From the IMG/VR virus record IMGVR_UViG_3300031227_016376, positions 1-21,088 of that record: a stretch of DNA of 21,088 nt, one strand, 5' to 3'. Positions 12,187-20,518 of this stretch are shown here, piece after piece. How positions within the stretch are numbered: the stretch's first letter is position 1; each line of letters begins with the position of its first letter. Below the pieces are notes generated by a model, which searched no databases, was not told where the DNA came from, and saw nothing but the letters and a program-made list of their open reading frames with translations. The stretch comes from a virus. The position numbers and the translations under genes were made by a program.

Positions 12187-12876
12187 ATGAAAGTTCACAG
12201 CATATTTATTACTATTCAGGGTGAGGGGCTATATTCAGGTGCTATTACTACGTTCATCAGATTTGCAGGCTGTCATTTGAGATGTGATTATTGTGATACT
12301 CGATATGCTCAGAATAATGATGACATTGATGATGTAGGGGTTCCATATATCATTGATAAAGTTACTTCTCTTTCTTCTAATCCAAGGTATATTTGTATTA
12401 CTGGAGGGGAGCCACTTGAGCAGCCTCAAACAGAAATGTTTAATCTTTTACAAGCCCTACAAAATTGGTGTGGTGCAAAGGGATTAGAATCAATAGTGAT
12501 TGAAACTAATGGGGCACAAGATGTTTCTTGGTTACTAGATAAACCTTTTAGATCAATTACTTCTTTATCAGTTGATTATAAACTCCCTTGTTCTGGTCAG
12601 GAAGATAAAATGCTTCTTAGTAACTTTAAGCATTTAGGACCAAGAGACGCCATGAAATTTGTTTGTAAAGATAAACAAGATGTTGATGTGGCTTTGAATG
12701 TTCTGGATAAATTAAAAGATTGTCCTGAATGCCAGCCTGTTGTGCTTTTTCATGCTTTAGGAGGTAAAGCAAGTGAGTGGTTACCTAAGTTGATGCTTAG
12801 TTGGGGAGAAGAGCTAAAACAAAGATGGGCTCTTCGTTATGGAATTCAGTTACACAAACTAGTGAATATGCAATAA
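12187..12876 (+). CDS. queE: QueE, 7-carboxy-7-deazaguanine synthase (radical SAM)
   Basis: QueE converts 6-carboxytetrahydropterin to 7-carboxy-7-deazaguanine, the ring-forming step of the preQ0 pathway. The 229-residue protein opens with SIFITIQGEGLYSG, followed by FIRFAGC and the radical SAM cluster motif CHLRCDYCDTRYA (Cys29, Cys33, Cys36). CITGGEPLEQP (70-80) is the SAM-binding GGEP segment. A later VIETNGAQD strand matches the ETNG of QueE. Length is typical of the family. A strong AAAAAGGA precedes the ATG. Together with queF and dpdA it supports a phage-encoded deazaguanine pathway. Confidence 0.92.
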   Translation: MKVHSIFITIQGEGLYSGAITTFIRFAGCHLRCDYCDTRYAQNNDDIDDVGVPYIIDKVTSLSSNPRYICITGGEPLEQPQTEMFNLLQALQNWCGAKGLESIVIETNGAQDVSWLLDKPFRSITSLSVDYKLPCSGQEDKMLLSNFKHLGPRDAMKFVCKDKQDVDVALNVLDKLKDCPECQPVVLFHALGGKASEWLPKLMLSWGEELKQRWALRYGIQLHKLVNMQ

Positions 12877-17226: not shown

Positions 17227-17538
17227 ATGTATTGTTCAAATTGTCATTATGGAAGTGAAACTTGCAAACTTCAGGAAACTGGAAAGGTTATAGTTACTTC
17301 TACAGAATTTCAGGGTAAGATAGTTAAATCTGAAGTTAATGAAGTAAAATGTCCTCAATGTGGTTGTAAAGCAGCTCCTCTTTTAGCATCTCCTTTTAAC
17401 CACAAAAAAGGTAAGCCTAAACCAAAAACTCATAAGCAAACAAGAAAACAGCAGCATGAGGCTAAAGATGATCATCAAGATATTGAGGATGCTACTAGTG
17501 GTCATATTAGGGCTATTGATTATACAAGAAACACATGA
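17227..17538 (+). CDS. Small zinc-ribbon protein with basic/His-rich tail
   Basis: The 103-residue protein has two Cys pairs, CSNC (3-6) and CPQCGC (42-47), with another Cys at 13, consistent with a zinc ribbon. A basic linker (KKGKPKPKTHKQTRKQQ) and an acidic/His-rich tail follow. GAGGTGGA lies upstream. Its stop overlaps the rad50-like start (ATGA), so the two are translationally coupled. Function is unknown; a nucleic-acid or protein adaptor role is possible. Confidence 0.65.
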   Translation: MYCSNCHYGSETCKLQETGKVIVTSTEFQGKIVKSEVNEVKCPQCGCKAAPLLASPFNHKKGKPKPKTHKQTRKQQHEAKDDHQDIEDATSGHIRAIDYTRNT

Positions 17539-18725
17539 TTGATTCAATCCATCTTAAAAATTTTCAAGCTCATAAGGATTCATTATTTGAATTCTGTAAA
17601 GGTGTCAATGTACTTATTGGTACTTCGTTTCATGGAAAAACGTCTTTGCTTAGATCCGTAAGATGGGTTAAAGATAATCGTCCAATAACTACAGGTGTTA
17701 TTCGGAGAGCCGCTGGTTCTGTTAGCAAGAAAGGAGTAAAAAAGATTGGGACAGCTGAAGTTACTATGGTTATGCAATCAGAAGCTGATCCTGAAAAGAA
17801 GGATGTTGTTACTAAAATTCGAGGGCCTGGGATTAATGATTATTACGTTAATAATAATCCACTCAGGGTTGTTGGACGCGCAGTTCCTGAAGATGTGACT
17901 CAAGCATTAAATCTTGACGAGATTAACATTCAAGATCAATTAGAACTTCCTTATTTGTTACTAGACACACCTGGAGTTGTAGCGGCAACATTTAATAAAT
18001 TTACTAATCTAGATAAAGTTGGAGCTACAGTAGATTTCTTATCATCTGATCTTCGAGCTAGAAGAAGTGATAAATTAGAAGCAGAAAATCTCTCAAAAAA
18101 ACTTTTGCAGCAGATTGAAGGGTATAGTTATCTTGCTGAATTAAAGGAACTTGTTACTATTTTGAATGAAATAGCTGATGAATTAGAAATAGCAACTGAA
18201 AGGGAAACGATTTTAACAGAAATTATTAGAAGGATGCAAGAAAATGAAGAGAAAGTTAAACAGACAGTTGAAAGAATTAAAACTCTTAAACCAGTTGTAG
18301 AAGAGGCAAATAGATTACTGCCAAAGATCCAGAATCTTGATGTTGAGCAAGAAAAGAGTTTTGCTCTGGTAGAACATTTGTCCCATAACATTAGAGATAT
18401 AGGTGATGCACAAGAGAGATTAAGGGAGATTACAGTTGCATTACCAGTTAGGAGGAAAGAGTTAGGGATAAGAAAGAAACAAATTCTCACTGCCAAGCAG
18501 GTTGAAGATCTAGAATCCACTGAGGAAGCTGAGCAGGGCTTGATTGATAAAATTAAAGATACAGAATTTCAAATTATTGGTAGAAAAAATAACCTTGAAC
18601 AATTTCACATAGAAATGAAAGCAGTTAAGAGTGAGCTAGGAAAAATTGATGTATGTGTGACTTGTGGTAGTAAACTGACTGATAAAACGCGTAAAACTAT
18701 GCTACAAAACTTGGAGGAATTATAA
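17535..18725 (+). CDS. N-terminal half of a split Rad50/SbcC-like ATPase
   Basis: Rad50/SbcC clamps DNA ends for the Mre11/SbcD nuclease. This 396-residue protein is only the N-terminal half. It begins IDSIHLKNFQAHKDSLFEF, typical of SMC-like heads, with Walker A GTSFHGKT (29-36) and a Q-loop at INIQDQLELPYLL (130-142). From about 165 it is a long coiled coil. It ends 19 residues after a zinc-hook Cys pair, CVTC (374-377). Walker B, the signature motif and the returning coil are missing and are supplied by genes at 19668 and 19916. The start overlaps the preceding stop; the end overlaps the proposed Mre11 start. The clean end just past the hook argues for a real split rather than a random truncation. 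Confidence 0.85.
   Translation: MIDSIHLKNFQAHKDSLFEFCKGVNVLIGTSFHGKTSLLRSVRWVKDNRPITTGVIRRAAGSVSKKGVKKIGTAEVTMVMQSEADPEKKDVVTKIRGPGINDYYVNNNPLRVVGRAVPEDVTQALNLDEINIQDQLELPYLLLDTPGVVAATFNKFTNLDKVGATVDFLSSDLRARRSDKLEAENLSKKLLQQIEGYSYLAELKELVTILNEIADELEIATERETILTEIIRRMQENEEKVKQTVERIKTLKPVVEEANRLLPKIQNLDVEQEKSFALVEHLSHNIRDIGDAQERLREITVALPVRRKELGIRKKQILTAKQVEDLESTEEAEQGLIDKIKDTEFQIIGRKNNLEQFHIEMKAVKSELGKIDVCVTCGSKLTDKTRKTMLQNLEEL
18713..18724 (+). promoter_or_regulatory. Strong ribosome site and probable ATA start codon of the Mre11-like gene
   Basis: GGAGGAA (18713-18719) is the strongest ribosome site in the region. ATA at 18722-18724 follows GGAGG after 4 bases, the same spacing as GGAG to ATG in the clamp gene. 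It overlaps the upstream TAA (18723-18725) as ATAA, mirroring the ATGA overlaps elsewhere. ATT at 18728 is the other candidate. No ATG, GTG or TTG exists in this frame before 18746. Confidence 0.5.
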
Positions 18726-19666
18726 AAATTGCATTTACAGGTGATGTGCATTCGAGATTTTTGCCTCCAGAAAATCGTACTGACAAAGATTTCTTTGCAG
18801 TAGTTCTTAATAAGTTAGAACAAATTTTTCAGATAACGAAAGAACATAACTGCAGTGTGCTTTTTCAACCAGGTGATATGTTTGATGCACCTGACCCTTC
18901 TCGTTTTGTAATTTCATCTATGCTTAGGGTTTTTCGAAAGTATTCAGATATTAAGGTATTTGGATGCTTGGGGCAGCATGATCTTGCTTATCGATCATGG
19001 CAAAATTTTAATCGAACTGCTTCTTATCTACTTGAAAGTGCAGGGGTTTTGACGATTGTTGGTCTTGATGGAAAAGCTGTTGAGTTGGAAAAGAACATTT
19101 TTCTGCATGGGCATTCTTTTGAGCAAACAGAAAATTTATCAAATCCTGTTGAAGGAGCATTTAATATTCTGCTTGCTCATGCTACTGTAGGAACAAGACC
19201 TTTATTTCCGGGTCATGAGCTTCCAAGTCCAAAAGCATTTGCTAAAAAGAATCCAGGATACTCACTTATAGTACTTGGAGATATACATTATGCATTTCAT
19301 TCAGTGTTTCAGGATACTAATATTTTTAACGCAGGTGTTGTACTTAGAAAGACTATTGCTGAAAAAGAACAAAAACCAAATGTAATTATTTATGATACTG
19401 AAACTGGAAAGTTTGAAATTGTTTTTCTAAAAGTTGAGCCCTGGCAGAATGTATTTACGATTCCAAAGAAAGCTAAAGAAGAGCAAAATAATAAACTTCA
19501 AAAGTTTATTGCAATTGTTCAAGGGAAAAAGAAGTCCATGGTATCATTTGATGACAACTTACAAACCTATTATGTAAACAATGAAGTAGCAAAACCAGTA
19601 CAAGATCGAGTCGCATTAGCAATGGAAAAGTGCGGGATGAAGATAAACGAACGGAAGGAGTTATAA
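18722..19666 (+). CDS. Mre11/SbcD-like (gp47-like) nuclease
   Basis: This metallophosphoesterase is the nuclease partner of the split Rad50. Started at ATA 18722 it has 314 residues and opens KIAFTGDVHSRF, giving motif I Asp8-Val-His10. Further motifs are QPGDMFD (GDxxD), GCLGQHD (normally GNHD; Gln replaces the metal-bridging Asn), LLAHATVG and VLGDIHYAF. The usual bacterial start choice would be GTG 18746, but that codon is the Val of DVH, so it would remove the catalytic Asp. Residues beyond about 220 form the capping and Rad50-binding part. It sits between the two rad50 half-genes and ends one base before the coiled-coil gene, so all four products are likely made together. Confidence 0.85.
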   Translation: MKIAFTGDVHSRFLPPENRTDKDFFAVVLNKLEQIFQITKEHNCSVLFQPGDMFDAPDPSRFVISSMLRVFRKYSDIKVFGCLGQHDLAYRSWQNFNRTASYLLESAGVLTIVGLDGKAVELEKNIFLHGHSFEQTENLSNPVEGAFNILLAHATVGTRPLFPGHELPSPKAFAKKNPGYSLIVLGDIHYAFHSVFQDTNIFNAGVVLRKTIAEKEQKPNVIIYDTETGKFEIVFLKVEPWQNVFTIPKKAKEEQNNKLQKFIAIVQGKKKSMVSFDDNLQTYYVNNEVAKPVQDRVALAMEKCGMKINERKEL

Positions 19667-19667
19667 T

Positions 19668-19919
19668 ATGTCAAAGGTAGAAGAAATTCAGACAAGAATT
19701 AAAGAGCTTGAAGGCCAGGTAAAAGAAGAAGAAACAATGCAGAGTGTGCTTGAAGGCAAGTTGCAAGTGTTAAAAGACCAATTGAAAGAAAAGTTTAATT
19801 GTGGTACGTTGGAACAAGCTGAAGAGCAGTTACAAATAAATAAGCGAAAAAATGAGAAACTTAAAGAAGAACAAAAGGAATTGTCAGAGCAACTTGACAT
19901 GTTGGTAGCCTCTAAATGA
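19668..19919 (+). CDS. Small coiled-coil protein within the split rad50 operon
   Basis: The 83-residue protein is almost entirely heptad-like and charged: VEEIQTRIKELEGQVKEEE, LEGKLQVLKDQLKEKF, then after a short NCGTLEQ break KNEKLKEEQKELSEQLDML. It has one Cys and no hook pair. AAGGAG precedes the ATG. It overlaps the next gene by 4 bases (ATGA). Lying directly before the C-terminal Rad50 half, which has a short coil, it could supply part of the missing returning coiled coil; that is inference from position and length. Confidence 0.75.
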   Translation: MSKVEEIQTRIKELEGQVKEEETMQSVLEGKLQVLKDQLKEKFNCGTLEQAEEQLQINKRKNEKLKEEQKELSEQLDMLVASK

Positions 19920-20518
19920 ACAGATACGAACAAATTTTAACTGAACGTCAGGCTGAAAGAGACCTTTTAATTCAGCAAAAATCTGATAGTGATAAGCGAG
20001 CCATTGAGATGTCACAAGAGATTGTTGAGTTAGAAGAAGCTAGGGTTGTTGTCAATAGTGTTCTTCAAGCTACTCAGATCATCATATCAGATTATATTGA
20101 AAGTGTTGTATCAACTTTATTACAGGTTGTATTTGGTGATTCGTTTGCATTCAAAGTTGTATATGAGCTCAAAAGAAATCAAAGTGAAGCTCATCTTTAT
20201 GTTTTAGAGGATGGAGAGATGTATGAACCTAAAGGGGAATGTGGAGTCGGCACTTTGAATGTTGCTGCGATTGGACTACGTCTAGGACTATGGGCTTTAA
20301 GAGGTAATTTAACGCGAAAGACCTTTTTATTAGATGAGCCAGCTAAATGTTTAAGTAAGGATAAAATTTCAAAATTTGGAAGTGTATTAAAAAAATGTGC
20401 TGAAATGTTAAAGGTGCAGTTGATTGTTATTTCTCATGACCCTGCACTTATAGAAGCAGCTGGCAAAGCATTTCAGGTTAGTAAAAAAAATGGTGTGAGT
20501 GAAGTGGAGGTTTGTTGA
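19916..20518 (+). CDS. C-terminal half of a split Rad50/SbcC-like ATPase
   Basis: The 200-residue protein starts with about 55 residues of coiled coil and then carries the C-terminal ATPase lobe. GVGTLNVAAIGLRLGLWAL (110-128) sits at the ABC signature position (LSGG in most relatives). Walker B is TFLLDEP (136-142), followed by a D-loop-like KCLSKD and an H-loop VISHD (171-175). It lacks Walker A, which is on the protein encoded at 17535-18725. The two must associate to form one ATP site, with Mre11 bound to the coil bases. The coil here is much shorter than the roughly 200-residue coil of the N-terminal half. Confidence 0.85.
   Translation: MNRYEQILTERQAERDLLIQQKSDSDKRAIEMSQEIVELEEARVVVNSVLQATQIIISDYIESVVSTLLQVVFGDSFAFKVVYELKRNQSEAHLYVLEDGEMYEPKGECGVGTLNVAAIGLRLGLWALRGNLTRKTFLLDEPAKCLSKDKISKFGSVLKKCAEMLKVQLIVISHDPALIEAAGKAFQVSKKNGVSEVEVC

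Follow-up and report, generated by a model that had tools for sequence, protein, structure and literature searches.

Four overlapping or touching genes of a virus record probably encode an Mre11-Rad50 machine in which Rad50 is built from three chains, with a repeat-built arm, a zinc hook and a small protein, here named S, as an arm-linked subunit; we put the probability of this reading at about 0.78. The genes lie in a 21,088-base IMG/VR virus record (IMGVR_UViG_3300031227_016376), of which one strand was read and which, in its whole length, is called the window below. Rad50 is generally taught to be a single chain with two arms that must pair from end to end; a natural Rad50 without a full returning arm, and with an arm whose length changes in unit steps, means that the roles of head, arm and hook are genetically separable and can be tested individually. 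The three-chain Rad50 is real and conserved, as is seen in the split, its conservation, the hook motif, the repeat of the arm, the co-occurrence of S and the near-exclusion of SbcCD. Profiles built here for the N-terminal chain (N-chain), S and the C-terminal chain (C-chain) gave 114 loci with both N and C (near-copies included), and the split is old and conserved, beyond chance, with homologues of all four genes standing together in more than 100 loci. A first-pass annotation of this DNA had already described the four genes, their coordinates and overlaps, and a Rad50 broken immediately past the zinc hook, giving two ATPase chains partnered by S and Mre11; all of this is confirmed, with the frames as given there, and recurs across these loci, and only the start of the Mre11 gene has to be corrected, to ATA 18722. 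The Mre11 and S genes are spaced by 1 nucleotide and the S and C genes overlap by 4. The features are as follows:

17535..18725, + strand: Rad50 N-chain, 396 amino acids (aa), with the N-lobe of the ATP-binding cassette (ABC) head, the outgoing helical arm and the zinc hook
17619..17642, + strand: Walker A GTSFHGKT, N-chain residues 29-36
18654..18665, + strand: half zinc hook CVTC, N-chain residues 374-377, 19 residues short of the chain end
18722..19666, + strand: Mre11/SbcD-like nuclease, 314 codons from ATA 18722, the start placed by comparison with the relative L016
19668..19919, + strand: S, the putative third subunit, 83 aa and helical, with two helices joined by the turn FNCGT
19916..20518, + strand: Rad50 C-chain, 200 aa, with about 55 residues of coil and the C-lobe of the ABC head
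20234..20251, + strand: ABC signature region GECGVG in the C-chain, from alignments; most relatives have ..GGG..
20321..20341, + strand: Walker B FLLDEPA in the C-chain

In the proposed architecture, the N-chain and the C-chain would together form a single ABC ATPase head, just like the two halves of an ordinary Rad50, and Mre11 would bind the Rad50 heads. The whole outgoing arm, made of 47-residue helical repeats, would be carried by the N-chain, and because this chain stops just past half a zinc hook, two complexes could be bridged through zinc at their tips. A full returning arm would be absent: at the root, the C-chain would contribute a coil of ~60 residues, and the conserved helix-turn-helix protein S would be a subunit attached to the N-chain arm. 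In the phage, the machine with its putative nuclease may process DNA ends for recombination-dependent replication, like gp46/gp47 of T4.

The predicted composite ABC head and its nuclease

The N-chain matches phrog_16465 (E 9e-25) as well as NCBIfam models of Rad50, and profiles group it with the N-lobes of Rad50 and SMC proteins. In an alignment of 51 N-chains, the Walker A residues G29, G34 and K35, characteristic of an ABC N-lobe, are invariant, and so are C374 and C377, which by their motif correspond to the hook cysteines of Rad50/SbcC. A CxxC is found near the C-terminus of every full-length N-chain of the surveyed set, with the exception of the N-chain of Microbacterium phage Magritte (L134), which has no hook. 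The C-chain matches phrog_15167 (E 4e-27) and is grouped by profiles with Rad50 C-lobes; its G110 (signature) and L139, D140 and E141 (Walker B) are invariant in the alignment, and it has the LLDEP of an ABC C-lobe together with an atypical signature, GVG or GGG without the usual LSGG. Among solved structures, the C-chain comes closest to the C-terminal chains of Pyrococcus Rad50, which were expressed separately (3QKR_B, 1II8_B, 1F2T_B), and a chromosomal N-chain to the A chains matching them. The engineered Rad50 catalytic domain, whose N and C halves were crystallised as two polypeptides (PDB 1F2T/1F2U, 1II8, 3QKR), resembles the split system as proposed here in forming one ABC head from two chains; the former, however, consists of man-made truncations lacking most of the arm, whereas the latter is natural and has arm, hook and a third protein.

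An AlphaFold model of the window N-chain (m88e6ebebb6cc; mean predicted local distance difference test score, pLDDT, 81) comprises the head, arm helices at residues 159-195, 199-286, 296-324 and 330-368, the hook loop and a short return helix at 383-395, and its N-lobe alone superposes on those of SMC, RecF and Rad50 with Z 10-13. In the relative L108 the N, S and C genes share a reading frame and only single TAG codons come between them, so that N-S-C can be read as one chain from natural DNA. The model of this read-through chain (pLDDT 81, predicted template modelling score 0.56; heads mostly >90, arm and S mostly 50-80) superposes over residues 1..792, with both chain ends, as a single head on SMC/Rad50 heads, with Z 32 to 5XNS and, for the Mre11-bound Rad50 3AV0, Z 29.6 (4.4 Å over 355 residues); the half head of the window N-chain alone reaches, for comparison, only Z ~13. 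The assembly of the two lobes into one ABC head is a prediction made on the relative L108. A natural 700-aa fusion of Mre11, Rad50 N-head and C-head was also observed (L128; G069:C6, 5152-7254, minus strand). It has neither coiled-coil arm nor zinc hook, and no S gene was detected in the 10 kb covered. Since it fuses both heads naturally, the N and C halves belong together.

The nuclease matches PF00149 (E 5e-12) and the SbcD-like phrog_100 (E 2e-15) and shows the metal-site motifs of metallophosphoesterases (GDVH, GDMFD, GQHD, HA and GDIH in the window). Its reading frame has no ATG, GTG or TTG at the proper place; with the sole annotatable start, GTG 18746, the protein would lack strand 1 together with its first metal-ligand Asp. 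Alignment with the relatives places the beginning of the frame at ATA 18722 (ATAAAAATTGCA, giving MKIA), which overlaps the stop of the N-chain as ATAA; an ordinary ATGA overlap is found at this position in the nearest relative, L016. ATA 18722 is either a rare ATA start, or the result of a G-to-A change, or a sequence error. As the Mre11 frame lies at -1 with respect to the N-chain and lacks those start codons ahead of the first strand, a fusion of the two proteins by a -1 frameshift was also considered, and it is rejected as very improbable: no slippery heptamer is seen at the junction, L016 has its start-stop overlap at the same place, and in natural Mre11-N fusions Mre11 is the first, not the second, partner.

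The metal site has GQHD for GNHD and GDxH for GHxH in the window (18722-19666), in L016 (7206-8168) and in L005 (3588-4547). These variant residues are found in the phages with the order N-Mre11-S-C, and the other relatives checked keep the usual ones.

The repeat-built arm and the small protein S

In 51 N-chains the stretch between the head and the CxxC was taken as the arm; it is 254 residues long in 4 chains, 299-303 in 40 and 347-349 in 4, so that 48 of the 51 follow 19+47n with n = 5, 6 or 7; those outside this series are the arms of the window (215), L016 (222) and L017 (176). When the arm profile is compared with itself the best shift is 47, followed by 94 and 141, and none of 500 heptad-block shuffles was as good. 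The repeats may either fold back into a bundle, or extend straight, each arm pairing with one from a second complex. In the N-chain of L017 (6001-7011) the arm repeats itself almost perfectly over ~38 residues (DTSEINKIISQIESIEIPDYS, present twice), a shorter unit than the 47 seen elsewhere.

S was found in all of the 114 loci carrying both N and C. A family hidden Markov model built here recognizes the window S with E 3e-17 (the window sequence being among its seeds), and bacterial members match phrog_18563; no curated function and no relative of solved structure was found for S. A search with phrog_18563 in a sample of 199 Bacillota genomes gave matches in 32, 30 of which carry the split C-chain: there, S adjoins the C gene and is always a short frame of its own, never one long frame with N or C, and the matches in the remaining two genomes are in long frames. 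No S-C or N-S fusion was found in the 114 loci, the long C frames of G168, G133, G222 and G202 being ordinary separate genes.

The first-pass annotation had suggested that S completes the returning arm. According to this view, S is the missing middle of that arm, and N, S and C together rebuild the ordinary antiparallel coiled coil of Rad50; in agreement with it, the helical S is encoded between N and C in most loci and is lost together with the arm. The lengths, however, do not fit: S (74-92 residues) and the coil of the C-chain (49-64) are constant while the arm of the N-chain ranges over 176-349, and the hook tail, S and C coil sum to only ~156 residues. The length of S is independent of that of the arm (rho 0.00, p 0.99, 51 loci), and its constancy in spite of the 47-residue steps disfavors S as a full returning arm; a conserved G-V-x-P turn is, moreover, found in the middle of S. 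We regard this proposal as improbable. Somewhat less unlikely, but still a minority view, is that S is a separate regulator or DNA-binding accessory, co-transcribed with a two-chain Rad50 without being part of the arm. The lack of a solved relative leaves room for it and, in Magritte, S adjoins the nuclease gene with N located elsewhere, an exception to the linkage of S and N; on the other hand, S remains with the N-chain where C is elsewhere and is almost confined to the split system in the 199 genomes. The arm-less L128 fusion, having no S, ties S to the arm. S is probably a small subunit linked to the arm of the N-chain.

A broader proposal, to which we give slightly less than an even chance, is an ancient and distinct type of Mre11-Rad50 whose arm forms no antiparallel hairpin. 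The N-chain would supply one arm only, made of tandem helical units of 47 residues; this arm would fold upon itself or pair with that of the partner complex, would end in the hook and would be braced by S, and the type would have taken the place of SbcCD in a sizeable share of the Bacillota as well as in several lineages of phages.

Conservation of the split and relation to SbcCD

A nucleotide search of phage records with the window gave no match. Scans with single proteins found two relatives for the window N-chain and none for its C-chain and Mre11; scans of viral and genome collections brought 110 loci beyond the first set, with N, S, C and usually Mre11, which is present in 112 of the 114. 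The split set occurs in Bacillus phage vB_BboS-125, Microcystis phage Mvi-JY20, Microbacterium phage Magritte and a 485-kb phage, as well as on plasmids of Bacillus, Paenibacillus, Geobacillus and others, where Mre11 is often fused to N, such fusions being found in Paenibacillaceae plasmids. The survey of other phages proposed for this gene order was carried out, and Mvi-JY20 has N-Mre11-S-C, identical to the window. On Bacillota chromosomes, 71 of 72 loci are arranged as Mre11-N-S-C, with median gaps of -8, 3 and 0 bases. Tight co-translation, considered likely in the first-pass annotation, is not required: in four clostridial genomes the C gene is on a contig other than that of the Mre11-N-S trio, in phage Tunturi_5 N and S are ~100 kb from C, and the genes of L017 are ordered C, N, S, so that assembly of the chains in trans must be possible. 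In vB_BboS-125 the N-chain and S genes are separated by an inserted gene with an AP2 domain (L002:5137-5709), which may encode a homing endonuclease, and in one prophage group (L018-L030 and relatives) ~310 bases without a recognised gene lie between N and S.

Could the window simply hold an ordinary phage sbcC that underwent recent fission or decay? One-chain SbcC relatives do exist in phages (670 aa in Achromobacter phage JWF), and close unsplit relatives, which would have spoken for a recent rearrangement, were looked for. However, every close relative is split at the same place, as expected of an old and conserved division; the halves are still conserved and their frames open, and split forms are spread across phages and genomes of several host groups in a deep tree. 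The explanation is rejected, as we see almost no chance for it. In the C-chain tree, the window and L016 group together, outside the main groups of Bacillota and prophages, the deep placements being on long branches.

Among the 199 Bacillota genomes, 33 (about one sixth) carry the split C-chain, 78 canonical SbcC and 74 canonical SbcD, and only G122 holds both the split C-chain and canonical SbcC/SbcD. SbcC is found in 1 of the 33 genomes with the split set versus 77 of the 166 without it, and SbcD in 1 of 33 versus 73 of 166 (p 3e-7 and 9e-7, respectively, by one-sided Fisher tests not corrected for kinship). In 25 genomes picked for the split set, SbcC is absent at E 1e-20 in 21, and two of the four SbcC-positive exceptions (L048 and L050) have phage-type copies. 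As only one genome holds both, the split set probably replaces SbcCD, and most likely does its work in the bacteria that carry it. About one sixth of the sampled Bacillota genomes would, in consequence, be annotated as lacking Mre11-Rad50 despite carrying the split form.

Several points weigh against the proposed machine. The exclusion statistics take no account of common descent, and for SbcC no more than three candidates were scored in each genome, though the SbcD search gives the same picture. Model confidence is moderate in the arm and in S (pLDDT mostly 50-80), the read-through model joins the chains covalently, which favors their association, and co-evolution, analysed between the chains as well as within the arm (107 loci, effective 81), gave noise, the head hairpins being only partly recovered. 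In the window, the Mre11 gene has an odd start codon and its product variant metal-site residues (GQHD, GDIH), which make its activity only putative.

Known systems and neighbouring genes

With Rad50/SbcC (TIGR00618, COG0419; Pyrococcus furiosus Rad50, Escherichia coli SbcC) the split system shares the Walker A of the N-lobe, the Walker B and signature of the C-lobe, the zinc hook (CPxC in Rad50/SbcC) and the linkage to Mre11/SbcD. It differs in that three genes take the place of one polypeptide with equal outgoing and returning arms: the N-chain stops shortly after the hook, a full returning arm is lacking (the returning coil has 49-64 residues), and 47-residue arm repeats and a small extra subunit are present. 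PHROGs 16465 (‘exonuclease’), 18563 (unknown) and 15167 (‘ATPase’) correspond to the N-chain, S and the C-chain, respectively, and are filed as separate families, not recognised as one Rad50. Defence SMC systems (Lamassu LmuB, Wadjet JetC) gave only weak PADLOC matches, attributable to the generic shared ATPase or coil; the Mre11 partner and the context of replication genes suggest a role other than defence.

No description of a split or multi-subunit Rad50 or SbcC was found in the openly searchable full-text literature; a survey of jumbo phages covers split polymerases, not SbcC. Mre11-Rad50 fusions have been reported in phages, plasmids and Firmicutes, with an SbcC P-loop segment that ‘was not observed’ in Anaerostipes and in Bacillus phage 0305phi8-36 (Yoshida, Claverie and Ogata, 2011; PMC3175470). 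These two fusions may be the present system seen in part; in the portion of that paper considered here, the missing half is not given as a separate gene, and neither S nor a split system appears.

The neighbours of the four genes in the window encode a clamp, a polymerase, a clamp loader, a UvsX-like recombinase, a primase, a DnaB-like helicase and an SNF2/UvsW-like helicase, and the genes surrounding the split Rad50 are a recombination-dependent replication module. In T4, gp46/gp47 are the phage Mre11-Rad50 (SbcCD), working beside UvsX and UvsW, and gp46 is a single chain; the window resembles T4 in having UvsX- and UvsW-like genes. Directly upstream of the N-chain is a further small gene:

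17227..17538, + strand: small zinc-ribbon-like protein (CxxC...CPxC), 103 aa, from sequence; overlaps the N-chain start by 4 nucleotides

It matched no Pfam family, has a similar small counterpart at the same place in L016 (5823-6023), likewise overlapping the beginning of the N-chain gene, and probably belongs with the split Rad50 system. Elsewhere in the window, positions 11-604, 1753-2727 and 12187-12876 encode QueF-like, queuine tRNA-ribosyltransferase-like and radical SAM proteins, respectively, which likely form a phage 7-deazaguanine pathway for DNA or tRNA modification.

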